Shown piece after piece: positions 53,278-60,369 of a stretch of DNA of 64,000 bases. A program made the translations under genes and the position numbers. Positions within the stretch are counted from its first letter, which is position 1, and each line of letters opens with the position of its first letter. Below the pieces are notes generated by a model. That model was not told the DNA's origin. It worked only from the letters and a program-made list of their open reading frames with translations, and made no database searches. This DNA comes from Polaribacter pacificus (GTDB lineage Bacteria; Bacteroidota; Bacteroidia; Flavobacteriales; Flavobacteriaceae), in NCBI RefSeq assembly GCF_038024035.1, contig NZ_CP150664.1:2046001-2110000 (forward strand). The letters run 5' to 3'.

Positions 53278-55638
53278 TTAAAACTTAAGCGTCACACCTA
53301 CTAAGAAATTTCGAGTCGCTTGCGGGTAATACCCAGCGCCATCAACAGTGGTCGTTTGGTTAGCGTTAGACCAGGTATCATCATAGGTAAAATAATATCC
53401 TCTATCTACATACTCTCTACCGAATAGGTTATTAACCAATCCAGTAAATAAAATAGATTTAAAAACCTTATTGGTTTTCCACTCATACGAGATGTTAAAA
53501 TCACTTGTAAAATAATCATCTAAAACATCGTTCTCAGTAACAGCGCTATTAAGATTGCTCATGTATTGAGATCCAACATATTTTGATAATAAAGCAACTT
53601 GAAATTGTTCTGTTGGGTGATACACCAAAGCATTCCCAGCAACAACATTCGGGCTAAAAGAAAGGTTTGTCTTTCCAAGGTTAGCAATTTGCCCGTTAAT
53701 AGGTGCTTTAAAATCTAGGTTTTTATTGTCGCTTATGGCGATGTTTGGACGTAATGAGAAGTTTTTATTGAAACGAATTTCTGCATCAACTTCAAGTCCT
53801 AAGCGATAACTCTTACCACTAGTAGCTCTTATTGGGTTCCCAGAATTGTCAATCGCTCCAGTAAGCACTAACTGATTGGTATAACGCATATAATAAACAT
53901 TTGAGTTTATGGTAATATTTTGGCTGTTAAAACGCCATCCCAATTCATAATCATGTAAGTTTTCATGAGCGCGAATCCCTCCTTCAAAATCATTTCTGTT
54001 TGGCTCTTTATTGGCAACACCAAACGATGCATACAGCTGTTGTTGGTTGTTGATGTTAAAGCTAGCTCCAAACTTTGGATTGAAAAAACTAAAGTTGGTG
54101 TCTACATCAATTGGAGCAATATCTGATGTAATTCCTTTGGTTTGATAGTTTACAAAACGTCCTTGCAAATCTACATAAGCACTAAAACGATCTGTAACTT
54201 TAAACGTTGCTTTAGAAAATATAGAAAAATCATTTTTAGAAGCATCACTAAAGTAATAACGATCTCTAATAGCTGCATTTGGAGCAAACTGCTTGGCCCA
54301 AATAACTTCTCCATAATGATCGTTAGAATAGCTGCTGTAAGAAAGTCCACTGATCAATTCTAATCGATCGTCTTGGTAGTTTGCATTAAAATTAGCCACA
54401 TAAAATTTGTTGTCTAACCATCTGCGAACAATCAAATCTGTTTCTCCACTTCCGTTGGTAGCAAGTACGATACCATTAAAATCTGCAACATCTTCATCCT
54501 CTTTAAACTGCTCAAAGAAACCTTGTCCTTTGGTAAAGTTTAATCCGACGTTGGTAGACCAATGATCGTTAAGTTTCTGATTCCAGTGCAACTGATAATG
54601 ATCTTGTTGGTAATCATCTACTTCGTTTTCATAAGTATATGGATTTTGTCTTCTGTTATCCTTTAATTGAGTTGCGTCAATACCATACCAAGCTTGATAG
54701 GTTTTTTCTTTTCCACCAAAAGTAACCGCTTTAATTAGAGTGTTTTCATCGGTATAAGAAGCTTGTAAAAAATACGATTTTAAATCAGTAAAGGCTCTAT
54801 CAATATAGCCATCAGAATAAATTTTAGACAGACGTCCAGCAATTTCTACATGCTCGTTAATTTTACCAGTACTAAATTTTACGGTATGCTTTCTGGTGTT
54901 GTAAGATCCAAAAGAATTGGCAATTTCACCGTAAGCATTCTCAGAAGTAGCATCGGTTAAAATATTTAAAGAGGCTCCAAAGGCACCTGTTCCGTTAGTA
55001 GAGGTACCAACACCACGTTGCAATTGCAAACTTTGTGTAGAAGAAGCAAAATCTCCTAGATTAACCCAAAAAGTACCTTGACTTTCTGCATCGTTATAAG
55101 GAATTCCGTTAATCGTCACATTTACGCGCTCTGCATTTGAACCTCTCACATTAATGTAGGTATAACCAACACCAGCTCCAGCATCTGAAGATGATACCAC
55201 AGACGGTAAATAGTTAAGAAGCATCGGAATGTCTTGCCCTAAATTGCGTTTTTCAATCTGCTTTTTACTCAAATTAGAGTGGGTTACCGGTGCGTTTGAT
55301 TTGACTCTCACTGCAGCAACTAAAACCTCGTCCAACAGATTGGTTTCTGGAGTTAAATAAAAGAACAACTCTTTGTTTTGGCGACCAATGCTTATTGGTT
55401 TTACCTGAGTTTTGTAGCCAATATAACGAACCTCTACTTGATAAGTTCCTGGTGAAACTTGCAGTTGGTACTTTCCTTCAAAATCAGATGAAGTTCCTTT
55501 GTTGGCATTTTTAATGAAGACAGTGGCCTGTGCTAAAGGTTGGTTGTTTTCATCATAGATTTTACCAGAAATGGTAAAGCTTTGGGAGTTTACAAGTGCG
55601 CTTGTAAACAAGAATAAAAAAATGGTAATTTTTTTCAT
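53278..55638 (-). CDS. TonB-dependent outer-membrane receptor under TPP riboswitch control, probable thiamine transporter
   Basis: 786 residues. Signal peptide (1-18), a carboxypeptidase-regulatory-like beta domain (about 22-95, SGKIYDENNQPLAQATVFI), a plug domain (about 110-225, with VNVRGSNAERVNVTINGIPYNDAE-like sequence) and the C-terminal barrel ending in FLVGVTLKF. It is preceded by a TPP riboswitch, and receptors with this arrangement are considered thiamine or thiamine-derivative transporters in Bacteroidota. The energy comes from TonB/ExbBD. It is monocistronic, bounded by the shared terminator. Confidence 0.9.
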   Translation of the reverse strand: MKKITIFLFLFTSALVNSQSFTISGKIYDENNQPLAQATVFIKNANKGTSSDFEGKYQLQVSPGTYQVEVRYIGYKTQVKPISIGRQNKELFFYLTPETNLLDEVLVAAVRVKSNAPVTHSNLSKKQIEKRNLGQDIPMLLNYLPSVVSSSDAGAGVGYTYINVRGSNAERVNVTINGIPYNDAESQGTFWVNLGDFASSTQSLQLQRGVGTSTNGTGAFGASLNILTDATSENAYGEIANSFGSYNTRKHTVKFSTGKINEHVEIAGRLSKIYSDGYIDRAFTDLKSYFLQASYTDENTLIKAVTFGGKEKTYQAWYGIDATQLKDNRRQNPYTYENEVDDYQQDHYQLHWNQKLNDHWSTNVGLNFTKGQGFFEQFKEDEDVADFNGIVLATNGSGETDLIVRRWLDNKFYVANFNANYQDDRLELISGLSYSSYSNDHYGEVIWAKQFAPNAAIRDRYYFSDASKNDFSIFSKATFKVTDRFSAYVDLQGRFVNYQTKGITSDIAPIDVDTNFSFFNPKFGASFNINNQQQLYASFGVANKEPNRNDFEGGIRAHENLHDYELGWRFNSQNITINSNVYYMRYTNQLVLTGAIDNSGNPIRATSGKSYRLGLEVDAEIRFNKNFSLRPNIAISDNKNLDFKAPINGQIANLGKTNLSFSPNVVAGNALVYHPTEQFQVALLSKYVGSQYMSNLNSAVTENDVLDDYFTSDFNISYEWKTNKVFKSILFTGLVNNLFGREYVDRGYYFTYDDTWSNANQTTTVDGAGYYPQATRNFLVGVTLKF

Positions 55639-55739
55639 TTTAAAAAATTTAAAACGAATAAAAAGAGGTAATTATTCTTGTGAATAATAGTGAATAATTA
55701 ATTGTTGTTAGTACTTCAGAACATTTCCTAATAATAACA

Positions 55740-55852
55740 TTCATTTCCCTAAACAGCATTACCTGTTCTAGGTTCTTTGGGTATGATCTCAGCCTTTGTG
55801 TAAGTTTTGAGTTATTTACAACTCTTAACTAAAAAAAGCACCCCTTTATGAG
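55740..55852 (-). ncRNA. TPP (THI-box) riboswitch
   Basis: On the minus strand the conserved core is visible in order: GGGGTGC (55844-55838), GGCTGAGA with ACCC (55794-55779), GAACCTG-type and AGGTAATGCTG (about 55770-55754), and GGGA (55750-55746). Outer bases CAT/ATG can close the first stem. The predicted transcription start is just before it, so the element starts the mRNA of the TonB receptor. About 100 bases separate it from the start codon; a hairpin ATTATTC-ACAA-GAATAAT lies in this part, close to the ribosome site, and may belong to the expression platform. Confidence 0.93.
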
Positions 55853-55859
55853 AACGGGG

Positions 55860-55893
55860 CAAATGTAAAATAGATTTTTGAATTGGGAAACAA
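55860..55893 (-). promoter_or_regulatory. Promoter upstream of the TPP riboswitch
   Basis: On the minus strand TTG (55893-55891), a 23-base spacer and TACATTTG (55867-55860). Predicted transcription start near 55853. Confidence 0.55.
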
Positions 55894-55977
55894 GAATCGT
55901 TTTTTTATTCCCTTAGTTTTTATTGTGCTATGTTTAAACGTCTTAATTTTATATCTTTATCGCAAACAGATATTATT

Positions 55978-57030
55978 TTGAAAAAACTACTCATATTGTT
56001 TTTCTTAGCCTCAGTTTGTTTGAGTTGCACAAAAGAAAAAACTTTTCTCATAAAGGGAACAATTTCTGGCGATCTGCCTAAGTATATTTATTTGTCTTAT
56101 GATGAAAAAAAGGACAGCGCTTTAATACGTAACAACAATTTTATTTTTAGAGGTAAAGTTTTAAAACCAACACAAGCGAGTTTTTATATAATTGGAGTTT
56201 CTACGATAAATAAGTTTTTTTATATTGACAATAGTAACCTTCAAATAAAATTAACAAATACCATAAAAACTTACCAAAAAAATGGAAATGATATTCAGGT
56301 AAATTTTATAAACATAGATACCGTTTTTGGAAATGATCTTTCAGTATTAGAGGCTAATTTTGAGAGATTTAAAGCAAATAATAAAACTCAAAATAATTGG
56401 AAAGAAAAAGTATATGAAAGGTTAGATAGTTTGATTTCTATCAATCCCAAGAATCTATTTTTTGGAGATCAACTATACAGTCTAGCTTTAAAAAAGACAT
56501 TGACTCCTACTGAAATAGAAAGCTTGTTTTCTAAACTAAATTTAGAGTATCAGTCTAAAGAGAGTATAAATGGAATTCAAGAATATATTAACCCTGTTAA
56601 AAAAATAGCAGTAGGTAATGTTATTTTTGATTTTCAATTACCAACTCCAGATAAAACATTTATAAACACAACTCAGTATAGAGGTAAGTATTTGTTCATT
56701 CATTTCTGGGCTTCATGGTGTGCACCTTGTAGAAAAGATAATATTGAGCTAAAAGAAGTGTATGCAAAATATAAAAAACATCCCTTACACATACTTAACG
56801 TTTCAACAGATACAGATTTAACCAAGTGGAAAAATGCGATTAAAGCAGATGGTGTTTCCTGGGATAATGTAGTTGACGATAGAAAATCAATGAGTGATAT
56901 ACTGGCAAAATATGACGCAATATCTTCAATCCCCAAAAGTTATTTAATAGATCCTGATGGACAGGTGATTCTCGCAAATCCAACGATTGAAGAATTGAAA
57001 AAAAAGCTTAACGAAGTTATCAAAAATTAA
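55978..57030 (+). CDS. TlpA-type thioredoxin lipoprotein (DUF4369-like N-terminus)
   Basis: 350 residues from a TTG at 55978. The frame is open to an ATG at 55930, but TATCTTTA at 55952-55959 looks like a -7 box inside it, and the signal peptide (KKLLILFFLASVCLSC) begins right after the TTG. After the lipobox, a beta-rich domain (about 25-110, FLIKGTISGDLPKYIYLSY) resembles DUF4369, followed by a linker and a C-terminal thioredoxin domain with FWASWCAPCRK (about 242) and PKSYLIDPDGQV. It likely reduces disulfides in the periplasm. It runs opposite to the thiamine genes on both sides. Confidence 0.85.
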   Translation: MKKLLILFFLASVCLSCTKEKTFLIKGTISGDLPKYIYLSYDEKKDSALIRNNNFIFRGKVLKPTQASFYIIGVSTINKFFYIDNSNLQIKLTNTIKTYQKNGNDIQVNFINIDTVFGNDLSVLEANFERFKANNKTQNNWKEKVYERLDSLISINPKNLFFGDQLYSLALKKTLTPTEIESLFSKLNLEYQSKESINGIQEYINPVKKIAVGNVIFDFQLPTPDKTFINTTQYRGKYLFIHFWASWCAPCRKDNIELKEVYAKYKKHPLHILNVSTDTDLTKWKNAIKADGVSWDNVVDDRKSMSDILAKYDAISSIPKSYLIDPDGQVILANPTIEELKKKLNEVIKN

Positions 57031-57063
57031 GGAACATTCATGAAAATGAATATATTTTGCTTA

Positions 57064-57468
57064 TTATTCCAACCCCGGTTTTTTACGCAAAGCTTTCTTT
57101 ACAGAGGTCTTCTTTTTGTTTTCTGCTTTTCTTTTTATTGAAGCTTTACTCGGCTTTGTAGGTCTTCGTTTTTTAGGAATAATGAGACTGAGCTTGATGA
57201 GTTCAAGAAAACGTTGAATGACCAATTCTTTATTCTTGTGCTGACTTCTACTTTCATCACAGGTGAGTAATAAGACGTTTTCTTTTGTAAGTCGGGTTGC
57301 TAAGTTTTTTAGCAAGAGCAATTTTTCTTCTTCAGAAAATTCAAGAGAGTTTTCTAGATCAAAAAACAATTCAATTTTAGACGAAACCTTATTTACATGT
57401 TGTCCGCCAGCACCACTACTTCTAGTTGCTTTAAAATTGAGTTCTTTGATGAGTTTTTCTGTGTCCAA
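57064..57468 (-). CDS. arfB: Peptidyl-tRNA hydrolase ArfB (YaeJ), ribosome rescue
   Basis: 134 residues. The N-terminal GGQ motif SSGAGGQHVNKVSSKIEL and the basic C-terminal tail (KRKAENKKKTSVKKALRKKPG), which enters the mRNA channel of stalled ribosomes, are both present. Domain 2 of release factors is missing, as expected. It frees stalled ribosomes by hydrolysing peptidyl-tRNA. It is 9 bases after the kinase gene on the same strand. Confidence 0.95.
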   Translation of the reverse strand: MDTEKLIKELNFKATRSSGAGGQHVNKVSSKIELFFDLENSLEFSEEEKLLLLKNLATRLTKENVLLLTCDESRSQHKNKELVIQRFLELIKLSLIIPKKRRPTKPSKASIKRKAENKKKTSVKKALRKKPGLE

Positions 57469-57477
57469 AATAAGTTT

Positions 57478-58080
57478 TTATTTTTCTAAGCTTTTAGAGA
57501 AAGAGGCTAAGTTCTTTTTGTTTGCAATGATTTTATCTATAGCATTTACGGCAATTTGCAATCTAGCTTCTTTACTGCCCGTTAAAAGAACATAAGGACG
57601 ATTGTATTTTTTTAAAGCAGATTCAAAAGCATCAAACATCTCTTTTCTTTGCCCCGGACGATCTCTTAAATCATCTTCTTCCCAAGGAGTGTCTATATAG
57701 GTTAATAGATACAAATTGTAGGTGTTTTCTTTTGCTGCCTTGTCTAATAAAGGATCTACAAATCCACCGTAATATTCTTCTGAGTACACCTTGGTTTCTA
57801 ATAAATCAGTATCGCAAATGAGTACTCTGTCTGCTTTTTTTGCCAACTTGTTTTCTAATTTCATTTGCCCAACAGCAATAGGGATCAAATCATCGGCTTC
57901 ACAGGTTTTACGCTCGTTATTCCATTTTTTCTGTAAGTATTCACGTGCGTATTCTGGTGCCCAAACAGTATTGTAATGTCTGGCCAATTGTTTTGAAAGG
58001 GTTGTTTTTCCTGTAGATTCAGGACCAAATAAAACAACCTTTACGATGTTTGCTTTTTGCTGTCTAAGTTTTTTTTCCAT
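57478..58080 (-). CDS. NadR-type P-loop kinase (AAA_28), probable ribosylnicotinamide or thiamine kinase
   Basis: 200 residues. P-loop GPESTGKTT (19-27), EYAREYL, CDTDLLETKVYS (Walker B-like) and YIDTPWEEDDLRDRPGQR are the motifs of the C-terminal kinase domain of NadR, here without the NMN adenylyltransferase part. NadR kinases phosphorylate nicotinamide riboside using ATP. Because a thiamine-binding-type protein and a PnuC-type transporter are encoded just before it, thiamine cannot be excluded as substrate. Its start overlaps the transporter gene by 40 bases. Confidence 0.85.
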   Translation of the reverse strand: MEKKLRQQKANIVKVVLFGPESTGKTTLSKQLARHYNTVWAPEYAREYLQKKWNNERKTCEADDLIPIAVGQMKLENKLAKKADRVLICDTDLLETKVYSEEYYGGFVDPLLDKAAKENTYNLYLLTYIDTPWEEDDLRDRPGQRKEMFDAFESALKKYNRPYVLLTGSKEARLQIAVNAIDKIIANKKNLASFSKSLEK

Positions 58081-58670
58081 GCCAAATAGCCTTGATAGGC
58101 TAAGATTAAAAAGATGGTAAATTGTAGCCCAGAAAAACCGAGCCCTTTAATAAAATACAAGGGTACAGAAACTGTGTTTCCGATAATCCACAAGCTCCAA
58201 TGTTCTATTTTTTTATTTGCCATTAACCACATTGCTGCAAAAAAGATACCCGTAGTAAAAGTGTCAAAGTAATCAGTTAATCGATCAAAACGGTTAAAAT
58301 AAATGTATACAAGAATTACAAATAACGCGGTGATTAAAAAGATACCAAGTGCCTTTAGTTTGTCTTTCTTGGTCGTTCGGCTTATTTCTAAGTGATAATT
58401 CCCAACAACGCGAGTCCACATATACCATCCAAAGATGCTCATACCTGTATAGTAGATATTGATAATTAGATCACCGTACAAGGTAAATTGGTAGCAGATA
58501 TACACATAAATTACCGTACTTATAATCCCGGTAGGATAAACCCAAATACTTTCTTTTTTAGCAAACCAAACACTGGCAATACCAAAGATTACAGCTAAAA
58601 TTTCTAGAAAAATATTTAAACTGCTCGCTGTGCGATAAGGCTCTAAAAAAAAATCAAAAATTTGGTTCAT
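58041..58670 (-). CDS. pnuC: PnuC-family vitamin transporter (nicotinamide riboside or thiamine)
   Basis: 209 residues with about seven transmembrane helices. WFAKKESIWVYPTGIISTVIYVYICYQ near the N-terminus and GWYMWTRVVG are characteristic of PnuC, and the C-terminal WIIGNTVSVPLYFIKGLG matches the substrate-binding helix of the family. PnuC lets nicotinamide riboside diffuse in, trapped by phosphorylation; the related PnuT branch takes thiamine. Overlaps the upstream gene by 17 bases and the downstream kinase by 40. Confidence 0.9.
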   Translation of the reverse strand: MNQIFDFFLEPYRTASSLNIFLEILAVIFGIASVWFAKKESIWVYPTGIISTVIYVYICYQFTLYGDLIINIYYTGMSIFGWYMWTRVVGNYHLEISRTTKKDKLKALGIFLITALFVILVYIYFNRFDRLTDYFDTFTTGIFFAAMWLMANKKIEHWSLWIIGNTVSVPLYFIKGLGFSGLQFTIFLILAYQGYLAWKKNLDSKKQTS

Positions 58671-58914
58671 AATTGCTTCTGTCTGATTTGACCATTTTTA
58701 AATTAACAACTATATTTTCTTGCTGATCAAAAGCTAACTTAATTTCCTTGTTTAAAAAGTTCATCAGGCTGTCATACTCCCCGTAAATTTGAGTGCTCAT
58801 CGGATTTTCTAATAGCGTAAATTCTGAAGCTCTTAGTCTAATAATAAAATCTTTAATAGCCGTCTCAAAATCATTGTTAAGAGGTAGCAAGGTTAATTCT
58901 ATAGATACATTCAT
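58654..58914 (-). CDS. Thiamine-binding-type small protein (MTH1187/YkoF family, DUF77)
   Basis: 86 residues without a signal peptide, so cytoplasmic. MNVSIELTLLPL, FTLLENPMSTQIYGEYDSLMNFL and IVVNLKMVKSDR match the ferredoxin-like fold of the MTH1187/YkoF family, whose members bind thiamine or its hydroxymethyl pyrimidine part. First gene of the operon with pnuC, the kinase and arfB; a -7-like TACTTTTA lies at 58935-58928. The 71-base spacer upstream is too short for a TPP riboswitch. Confidence 0.75.
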   Translation of the reverse strand: MNVSIELTLLPLNNDFETAIKDFIIRLRASEFTLLENPMSTQIYGEYDSLMNFLNKEIKLAFDQQENIVVNLKMVKSDRSNYEPNF

Positions 58915-58985
58915 GATGTTTTTTTTGTAAAAGTAAAATTTTATATGAGTCTAAGACTGTTTTACCGATGAAAACAAATTATTTT

Positions 58986-59699
58986 TTATGAATCAAAAAA
59001 ATTGAGGTTTAATTCAAAAGCGGTTCCAATAACTACCAAATCAGCACCTGCAATATAGGCTTGTTCTAATTGCTGTTTATTTCGGATTCCTCCACCGACA
59101 ATTAATGGAACTGAAATTTGTTTTTTTACCTCTTTGATTATCGTAGTCGAAACTGGTTTTTTTGCGCCAGATCCGGCCTCTAAATAAATGAGTTTTTGAC
59201 CTAAATATTCACTAGCTAAAGCAGTAGAAACAATTTCTTTTAGTTGATCTTGTGCAAGCGGTGTTGTTTTACTTACTCTTTGGACAGCTGTTTCTGTTCC
59301 TCCATCTATCAACAAGTATCCAGTTGGAATTATTTCTAAGCTATTTCTTTTTAAAGTCTGGGCAGCTTTTATTTGTTGACCAATTAAATACTCTGAATTT
59401 CTTCCAGAAACGAGGCTTAAAAACAACAAGCCGTCTGCAGCATTTATTACCTGCTCTGAACTTCCTGGGAAAAGAATTACTGGTAATTTACTCAGTTTCT
59501 TTAAGGCATTTACGAGGGTTTCTATTTGTTGATTTTCATCAGTGCTACCTCCTACAAAAATATGAGTAACCATTGATTTGTGAATTTTATCCAAGAAAGA
59601 AGGAAGCTTTTCTATGTCTACCTTTTCAGGATCTAATAAAACCGCAAGAAGTTTTTTTTGGTCTGTCTTTGCGCTAAGGATGTTTTTATAAATATTCAC
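58986..59699 (-). CDS. Geranylgeranylglyceryl phosphate synthase (GGGPS/PcrB family)
   Basis: 237 residues. The TIM-barrel signature is clear: AVLLDPEKVD, VGGSTDENQ, ILFPGSSEQV, PTGYLLIDGG, YLEAGSGAKKPV, VGGGIRN and GADLVVIGTAFE. It attaches an isoprenyl chain to sn-glycerol-1-phosphate, the ether-lipid step known from Archaea; bacterial homologues exist in Bacteroidota and Firmicutes. The chain length used here cannot be read. It is 40 bases after the phosphopantetheinyl transferase on the same strand. Confidence 0.93.
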   Translation of the reverse strand: MNIYKNILSAKTDQKKLLAVLLDPEKVDIEKLPSFLDKIHKSMVTHIFVGGSTDENQQIETLVNALKKLSKLPVILFPGSSEQVINAADGLLFLSLVSGRNSEYLIGQQIKAAQTLKRNSLEIIPTGYLLIDGGTETAVQRVSKTTPLAQDQLKEIVSTALASEYLGQKLIYLEAGSGAKKPVSTTIIKEVKKQISVPLIVGGGIRNKQQLEQAYIAGADLVVIGTAFELNLNFFDS

Positions 59700-59739
59700 A
59701 GGGGGGCTAATTCAAAAGATTGTATATAAAAATATGTTT

Positions 59740-60369
59740 TTAGGAGTATGCATACACGCAAGTAAAACCTTCAAATTCTAAAAAGTGCACATGAAAGGGG
59801 TAGGTCTCGCCACGATAACGAATTTCACCCTTAGTATATGACTCTTCAAAGTTAAAATCATAAATGTAAATATGCTCTAAAAAGCGAAGCTTTTTTTTGC
59901 CGTAGATCTTGTACAAGCTTTCTTTGGCTCCCCAAACAATGGTTAATTTGCTAATTAAAGCAGCATGGTTTGCGATGGTTTTATACTCTTCTACGGGTGT
60001 AAACTTATGTGCAATTGTTAAAATCTTATCGCGTTGCTTTTCAATATCAATACCAACATATTGATTTTCTGAAATGATAATTGCGGTAAAGTTAAAAGAG
60101 TGGGTAATAGAAATGTGTTTTCCGTCCTTTAAAAAAGGTTTACCATGCTCATCATAATACAAATCACTATCACTATAACCAGCTTCTTTTAACAAATGAC
60201 GTATACTTACAAAGCCTCGTTGATGTAAGTCAGATTTCATTGAGTCTAAGCGCTGTTGACTGTTGGTTGTCAACATAATTGGAGCTATCAAGCTATCTAA
60301 AGATTCTTCAATCTTCCAGATATAAAGCTTACAGCTTTCATTAACAAGGATCCTTTTGTAAAGAGGCAT
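59740..60369 (-). CDS. 4'-phosphopantetheinyl transferase (Sfp family)
   Basis: 209 residues. The magnesium and CoA-binding motif [11 protein letters not shown] (about 104-114) and the second motif [14 protein letters not shown] (about 150-163) are intact, as is the N-terminal ISITHSFN block. It loads carrier proteins with the phosphopantetheine arm of CoA. No polyketide or peptide synthase is near, so its target is probably a carrier protein elsewhere. It is divergent from ahcY. Confidence 0.93.

Follow-up and report, generated by a model that had tools for sequence, protein, structure and literature searches.

Which vitamin do a PnuC-type permease and a NadR-type kinase handle when they are encoded close to a thiamine pyrophosphate (TPP) riboswitch? 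The question is raised by a locus in a 64,000-nucleotide stretch of the Polaribacter pacificus genome (contig NZ_CP150664.1, positions 2,046,001 to 2,110,000; this whole stretch is called the window below). On the minus strand, a TPP riboswitch precedes the gene of a TonB-dependent receptor and, 2-3 kb upstream of them, an operon encodes in this order a small MTH1187/YkoF-type protein, a PnuC-superfamily permease and a stand-alone NadR-type P-loop kinase (hereafter KIN), followed by arfB (Table 1). The preliminary description of this locus had placed the riboswitch at 55740-55852, within a few bases of the RF00059 match that we obtained at 55856-55729, and had reported an overlapping minus-strand operon of thiamine-binding-type, PnuC-type and NadR-type genes. 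We recovered this operon from Pfam matches and from the overlapping coordinates (small protein and permease over 58654-58670, permease and KIN over 58041-58080). The further proposal that the whole set imports and traps thiamine, with KIN as a predicted thiamine kinase, agreed with the presence and absence, order and neighbours of these genes in 120 genomes of the family and 246 of the class. We consider it very likely, from these comparisons of sequences, that the locus serves thiamine (vitamin B1) salvage and that the predicted substrate of KIN is thiamine. The locus is best read as a version of OMthi-PnuT-Tnr3, a system already known for thiamine salvage, in which Tnr3 is replaced by a NadR-type kinase.

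We examined the distribution of thiamine-activating enzymes in the family, defined here as the group f1 that includes the window genome (its named near relatives belong to the Flavobacteriaceae, and the closest of them to Polaribacter). A single set of 120 evenly drawn genomes, at least 90% complete and three of them more than 5% contaminated, was used for every gene. KIN was recovered in 115 of these genomes, the weakest best match having an E-value of 1.3e-49, and a permease of the PF04973 family in 119. ThiL (TIGR01379) was matched in all 120 genomes, above the cut-off in 119, and is present in the window genome. Thiamine pyrophosphokinase (TPK, PF04263) was detected in eight genomes and TMP-TENI proteins (PF02581, ThiE) above the cut-off in 38, and ThiK (TIGR02721) reached its cut-off in none, with weak matches in nine. 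TPK, TMP-TENI and ThiK all had no match in the window genome. The five genomes lacking KIN carry TPK with ThiE (G002, G085), TPK (G014, G105), or ThiE with neither TPK nor permease (G018), and Fisher's test of KIN against TPK gave a p-value of 4e-5 with genomes treated as independent. Of the three enzymes KIN, TPK and ThiE, 79 of the 120 genomes, including the window genome, had KIN alone (80 without the ThiE call in G022, a doubtful one of 33 bits).

KIN was also present in 32 family genomes with ThiE and without TPK. Together with the TMP-TENI genes found in the operon in some other families (see below), this would fit a kinase acting on a thiamine precursor or breakdown product, such as hydroxymethylpyrimidine (HMP), thiazole alcohol or formylaminopyrimidine, and not on thiamine. 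We regard such a substrate as very unlikely: the gene that alternates with KIN is TPK, whose substrate is thiamine itself, and without ThiE the usual route cannot join a phosphorylated precursor into thiamine phosphate (passages of PMC5613172 name YjbQ as an alternative).

KIN and TPK, the exchange of which argues for thiamine as the substrate, also seldom coincided in the class sample of 246 genomes, nine of which belong to the window's family and three of these also to the set of 120. KIN was found in 142 genomes, TPK in 51 and both in five (Fisher p 1.8e-15, ignoring descent). One additional match, in G314, corresponded to a NadR with its own permease and was dropped, the KIN count passing from 143 to 142. 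For this sample, ThiE was counted at a best E-value of 1e-25 or lower, though weaker TMP-TENI matches occur; among the 158 genomes without such a strong ThiE, 118 had KIN only, 34 TPK only, one both (with a weak KIN match) and five neither. The class table was prepared both with and without the weak or split KIN matches of G126, G166, G209, G215, G226 and G355. Switches that looked independent include those of G319, which has TPK without KIN in the genus g112, where the other four sampled members have both, and of G184, with TPK and no KIN in the family f32, six other members of which show the converse, KIN being matched and TPK absent. This comparison of genomes suggests that KIN is the missing B1-activating enzyme of a large bacterial group; if this is true, KIN would close a gap in the thiamine pathway in over half of the class genomes sampled.

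We then compared gene order in named related loci, the best 80 of 229 confirmed ones, which were fetched with the permease. The permease is directly followed by KIN in 78 of these 80 loci, and in 112 of the 115 KIN-bearing family genomes KIN has a permease as its immediate upstream neighbour. Downstream, 61 named loci had enough sequence: a TPP motif and a TonB receptor were found in 52 of them, arfB in 49 and a DUF4301 gene in 26, the receptor lying directly 3' of the motif in all 52 motif-bearing loci. The usual block thus comprises, on one strand, a phosphopantetheinyl transferase (PPTase), a PcrB-type synthase, (the small protein), the permease, KIN, (DUF4301), ArfB, the TPP riboswitch and the receptor. 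By its place in this block, the TonB receptor of the window is probably a thiamine receptor of the OMthi/Omr1 type. The preliminary description had supposed that a once contiguous locus had been split, with a TlpA-like gene and arfB lying between its parts. The first half of this idea held, since relatives keep a single one-strand block and the window has a TlpA-like gene on the opposite strand inside it, between arfB and the riboswitch; in the 80 related loci, tblastn gave no TlpA-like match in the interval from ArfB to the TPP motif. However, arfB is not an intruder, as it belongs to the usual block in relatives. It is a conserved neighbour for which we propose no role in the thiamine system, and the TlpA-like gene is not part of that system.

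The riboswitch of the window matches RF00059 over its full length (model 1-105) with 38.9 bits and an E-value of 2.5e-5, and is missed at the gathering threshold because this score is below the curated value of 54.3. It is the only RF00059 match in the 2.72 Mb genome. We consider it more than a chance match because a TPP element near KIN is kept in 90 of the 115 KIN-bearing family genomes, within 12 kb and on the same strand, downstream of KIN in all 90 and at a median distance of 2.0 kb. TPP riboswitches were present in 111 of the 120 family genomes. The arrangement of a TPP riboswitch before a TonB receptor, typical of OMthi-PnuT-Tnr3, was thus recovered in the window at a conserved position, with a score below gathering. 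Folding of the leader as RNA (z -1.84) gave no clear readout. The operon had been described as having no riboswitch of its own, and indeed it shows none, since no other Rfam match was found up to an E-value of 1 within 55600-59200.

The loci of two family genomes without KIN illustrate the substitution. In L095 (G014), a TPP riboswitch (60.5 bits) is followed in turn by a TonB receptor, a permease and a TPK above the TIGR01378 cut-off; this is a classical OMthi-PnuT-Tnr3 operon, with TPK in the place of KIN after the permease, and not the PPTase-ArfB block. L097 (G085) does carry that block, including permease, DUF4301 and ArfB, but KIN is missing from it and the TPK of this genome is encoded at another place; on the strand of the permease, a TPP element (45.9 bits) follows about 7.4 kb downstream. 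We inspected 35 hand-picked KIN-like regions from the 134 class genomes with KIN outside the family, some families being represented repeatedly, and set aside L136, which is a NadR. In the 34 remaining loci, the permease lies directly upstream of KIN in 29, the operon includes a TMP-TENI gene in nine (four of these nine genes served as search queries themselves) and a thiamine-binding-type gene in six, and a TPP motif is found downstream in nine; by our count, 21 of the 34 have at least one thiamine-linked neighbour. Seven TMP-TENI genes were tested with Pfam and scored above the cut-off in L118, L120, L123, L132 and L134 and below it in L122 and L127. In the part of the 34 regions that was scanned, TPP elements reached the Rfam threshold in L119, L126, L128, L129, L159 and L168, the element of L126 being detected in this way without the motif.

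The permease and kinase superfamilies, their gene pairing and their catalytic motifs are those of nicotinamide riboside (NR) salvage by PnuC and NadR. The locus could thus be an NR salvage unit, in which PnuC would import NR and the NadR-type kinase would make nicotinamide mononucleotide (NMN), the TPP-controlled receptor being merely adjacent. We consider this very unlikely. Besides the near-exclusion of KIN and TPK, with KIN as the sole route of the three in most family genomes, and the thiamine-related genes within the operon in some other families, a KIN match coexists with a full NadR, including its adenylyltransferase-type domain, in six genomes (G001, G132, G170, G237, G251 and G294; KIN is known in G132, G237 and G294 by a match and a short open frame alone). 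The NadR loci of these genomes (L099, L157, L158, L160, L161 and L162) all adjoin a permease except L158. Of the PnuC-NadR loci, six were scanned for TPP elements (L099, L136, L157, L160, L161 and L162), and none had a match at the Rfam threshold. The proteins themselves also differ: KIN (200 amino acids) consists of the kinase domain only, without the NMN adenylyltransferase domain that accompanies it in NadR, and the NadR model TIGR01526 matches it only at profile positions 162-319 of 325, with 125.5 bits against a cut-off of 341.15.

In the kinase tree (74 rows), 66 KIN sequences and 8 NadR kinase domains were recovered on opposite sides of one branch (99/70), so that KIN did not group with the kinase domains of NadR. 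For this tree and the permease tree, roughly one in four of the named loci (80 in all) and most of the other fetched rows were used. The predicted structure of KIN had a mean predicted local distance difference test (pLDDT) score of 92.3, and its best matches among solved structures were NadR (8x7f, template modelling (TM) score of 0.80 on the query), then thymidylate kinases. The residues invariant in 57 KIN sequences include G19, E21, K25, E43, R46, Q72, D90, T91, D130, D136, R139 and R173. From the fold class, we infer that KIN would transfer a single phosphate, giving thiamine monophosphate (TMP). A P-loop pyrophosphate transferase making TPP in one step, as TPK does, appears exceedingly improbable: KIN does alternate with a pyrophosphokinase, but the proteins related to it in fold are kinases of nucleosides and nucleotides that transfer phosphoryl groups, and ThiL, which converts TMP into TPP, is above the cut-off in nearly all family genomes, though kept in TPK-only genomes too.

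The permease of the window, the sole PF04973 copy of its genome, is predicted to be a PnuT-type thiamine permease. A permease tree had been suggested as a check of its substrate. In this tree (73 rows), the PnuC of Escherichia coli and two NadR-linked permeases formed a group (100/98) apart from the window permease, which grouped (99/92) with four permeases adjoining a monooxygenase-like gene; among these four, L100 and L104 reach the Rfam TPP threshold, and G105 and G010 have weaker TPP matches just upstream. The tree thus leans towards a thiamine permease without being decisive, and we rejected it as a deciding test in view of an approximately unbiased (AU) test p-value of 0.25 for the alternative described below and of the long branches of many class rows. 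We also rejected matches to the PnuC model TIGR01528 as evidence of NR transport. This model is above its cut-off on the TPP-TonB permease of L108 as well, and it cannot tell NR from thiamine permeases because the TPK-linked permease of L095 also passes.

The small protein narrowly passes the gathering cut-off of PF01910 (25.7 against 24.9 bits). It had no NCBIfam match, and its nearest solved structure is 2ibo (E-value of 5.5e-7). Proteins encoded at the corresponding position in other loci match PF01910 or PF07615 (Ykof), in part with scores below the cut-off. It is possibly a cytoplasmic thiamine binder. A gene for it lies directly upstream of the permease in 24 of the 76 named loci with room and is absent from that position in the other 52, so that it is accessory.

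Several observations weigh against thiamine as the substrate of KIN. KIN and TPK are found together in four family genomes (G054, G062, G101 and G111); in the class, their co-occurrences correspond to four genomes of the genus g112, G111 included, and to one weak KIN match. Five class genomes (G149, G208, G231, G275 and G293) have neither KIN nor TPK nor a strong ThiE. The p-values assume independent genomes, and the underlying events are fewer (five genera of the family that have TPK and no KIN, one f32 genome and the sister family f2). TPP elements lie only elsewhere in 16 of the 115 KIN-bearing family genomes and were not found in nine, the permease is not directly upstream of KIN in G015, G038 and G084 (the KIN of G038 lies at a contig edge), and 13 of the 34 loci outside the family have no thiamine-linked neighbour. 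TPK-only genomes, G014 and G105 for example, have ThiL as well; it therefore cannot show that KIN makes TMP rather than TPP, and we rejected it as proof of the former. Finally, the catalytic motifs of KIN are still those by which NadR is recognised as an NR kinase, only columns 76 and 142 differing from NadR among those at least 85% conserved in 61 KIN rows, and a clade uniting the window permease with the NadR-linked PnuC is not rejected by the AU test (p 0.25). NR salvage would draw on these last two points, on the closest solved structures and curated models, which are those of NadR and NR-transporting PnuC, and on the source names of several KIN relatives, which are NadR-like ("NadR / NMN adenylyltransferase"). 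E76 and P142 of KIN are absent from all three NadR domains aligned; we rejected motif residues as evidence of substrate, two positions compared with three NadR domains being too few. If KIN is a thiamine kinase, as we favour, these labels would need correcting.

In the proposed thiamine salvage, scarcity of TPP would allow the riboswitch to permit production of the TonB receptor, which would carry thiamine across the outer membrane, and thiamine would then equilibrate across the inner membrane through the PnuC-type permease. The small protein, where present, may hold thiamine. KIN would phosphorylate thiamine on its hydroxyethyl group at the expense of ATP, yielding TMP that could not leak out, and ThiL would add the second phosphate to give TPP. 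KIN would thus fill the trapping role played by thiamine pyrophosphokinase (Tnr3/ThiN) in Bacteroides and by ThiK in E. coli. A bolder version, which we judge highly improbable, would make KIN a new thiamine-activating family replacing TPK in over half of the class and, in some lineages, either followed by DUF4301 or fused to it; if DUF4301, which weakly resembles UDP-sugar pyrophosphorylases, acted on the product of KIN, this would imply an unknown nucleotide derivative of thiamine.

OMthi, PnuT and Tnr3 were described in gut Bacteroidetes (Costliow and Degnan, 2017; PMC5613172), the system of B. thetaiotaomicron being listed in passages of that paper as BT2390 and BT2396-BT2397, with OMthi also called Omr1. 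Features that the locus shares with this system are the TPP riboswitch, the TonB receptor, a permease of the PnuC superfamily and a kinase whose predicted role is the trapping of thiamine. It differs in that the kinase is a NadR-type P-loop protein (PF13521) instead of Tnr3 (TPK), that the riboswitch does not precede permease and kinase, and that ArfB and often DUF4301 are included in the KIN block. From PnuC-NadR, the KIN system is set apart by its domain content, its separate kinase branch and its thiamine-linked neighbours. Like the E. coli ThiK, KIN is predicted to convert thiamine into TMP, on which ThiL would then act; the aminoglycoside-phosphotransferase-like fold of ThiK we take to be unrelated to that of KIN. 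The small protein resembles MTH1187/YkoF thiamine-binding proteins (PF01910, PF07615) in its score at or near the family cut-off and in its thiamine-linked neighbours. YkoF-type proteins are otherwise encoded with the YkoEDC ATP-binding cassette (ABC) transporter, whereas that of the window is encoded with a PnuC-type permease.

According to passages of published work, marine flavobacteria include predicted B1 auxotrophs (PMC8552899), some Flavobacteria are counted as B1 producers (PMC12236431), and omr1 and pnuC are counted as B1 uptake genes of Bacteroidetes (PMC12442306). Eight Flavobacteriales metagenome-assembled genomes with thiL and omr1 but without biosynthesis were recorded as salvaging thiamine, and no thiamine kinase is named for them in the passages concerned (PMC12236431). 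Among the titles and abstract openings of the literature matches listed, a NadR-type thiamine kinase was not proposed, although an earlier prediction is possible. If our prediction is true, KIN would be a marker of thiamine salvage in metagenomes and a case of a NadR-type kinase taking over another vitamin.

Table 1. Features of the locus and its surroundings in the window.
Feature	Position	Strand	Evidence or remark
TPP riboswitch aptamer	55729..55856	-	leader of receptor gene; RF00059
TonB-dependent outer-membrane receptor	53278..55638	-	CarboxypepD_reg (CarbopepD_reg_2), Plug, barrel (Pfam)
TlpA/ResA-like thioredoxin lipoprotein gene	55930..57030	+	AhpC-TSA, Thioredoxin_8, DUF4369 (Pfam)
arfB, ribosome rescue hydrolase	57064..57468	-	NF006718, 127.1 bits, above cut-off
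KIN, stand-alone NadR-type P-loop kinase	57478..58080	-	PF13521, 147.6 bits
PnuC-superfamily permease	58041..58670	-	PF04973, 178.5 bits
MTH1187/YkoF-type small protein	58654..58914	-	PF01910 (Thiamine_BP), 25.7 bits
PcrB/GGGP-type synthase and PPTase	58986-60369		5' of the operon
Sulfur/rhodanese genes	49-53 kb

The PcrB-type synthase gene precedes the operon in 60 of the 76 relatives with room and has no evident link with thiamine. DUF4301 (PF14134), which shows weak UDPGP similarity in L097, is absent from its usual place in the window. Elsewhere it is fused to KIN, as identified by Pfam in L149 (one frame of 737 amino acids) and by tblastn in L148 (one frame), and as indicated by frame length only in L093, G206 and G279. 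Other fusions associate KIN with an aldose-epimerase domain at L159:3163-4659, in a TPP-TonB locus, and with a GNAT acetyltransferase domain at L163:3658-4707. In the genus g112, the TPK genes of L088 and L138 have a DUF4249 gene and a gene of receptor size nearby, an arrangement unlike PnuT-Tnr3.

Some PnuC-type permeases were found with other partners. In L098, L100, L101 and L104, a second permease of this type is followed by an oxidase resembling acyl-CoA dehydrogenases and HsaA. In each of the four loci a TPP match shortly precedes the pair, which possibly serves the salvage of a thiamine derivative. In L103, L107 and L109, a 2-oxoglutarate (2OG)-Fe(II) oxygenase gene directly precedes a divergent PnuC-type permease, the pair of L109 coming after a TPP-controlled receptor. 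At L102:6594-8058, a permease of the KIN group adjoins a 5'-nucleotidase gene (PF06189), with a match to the Flavo-1 small RNA (sRNA) nearby.

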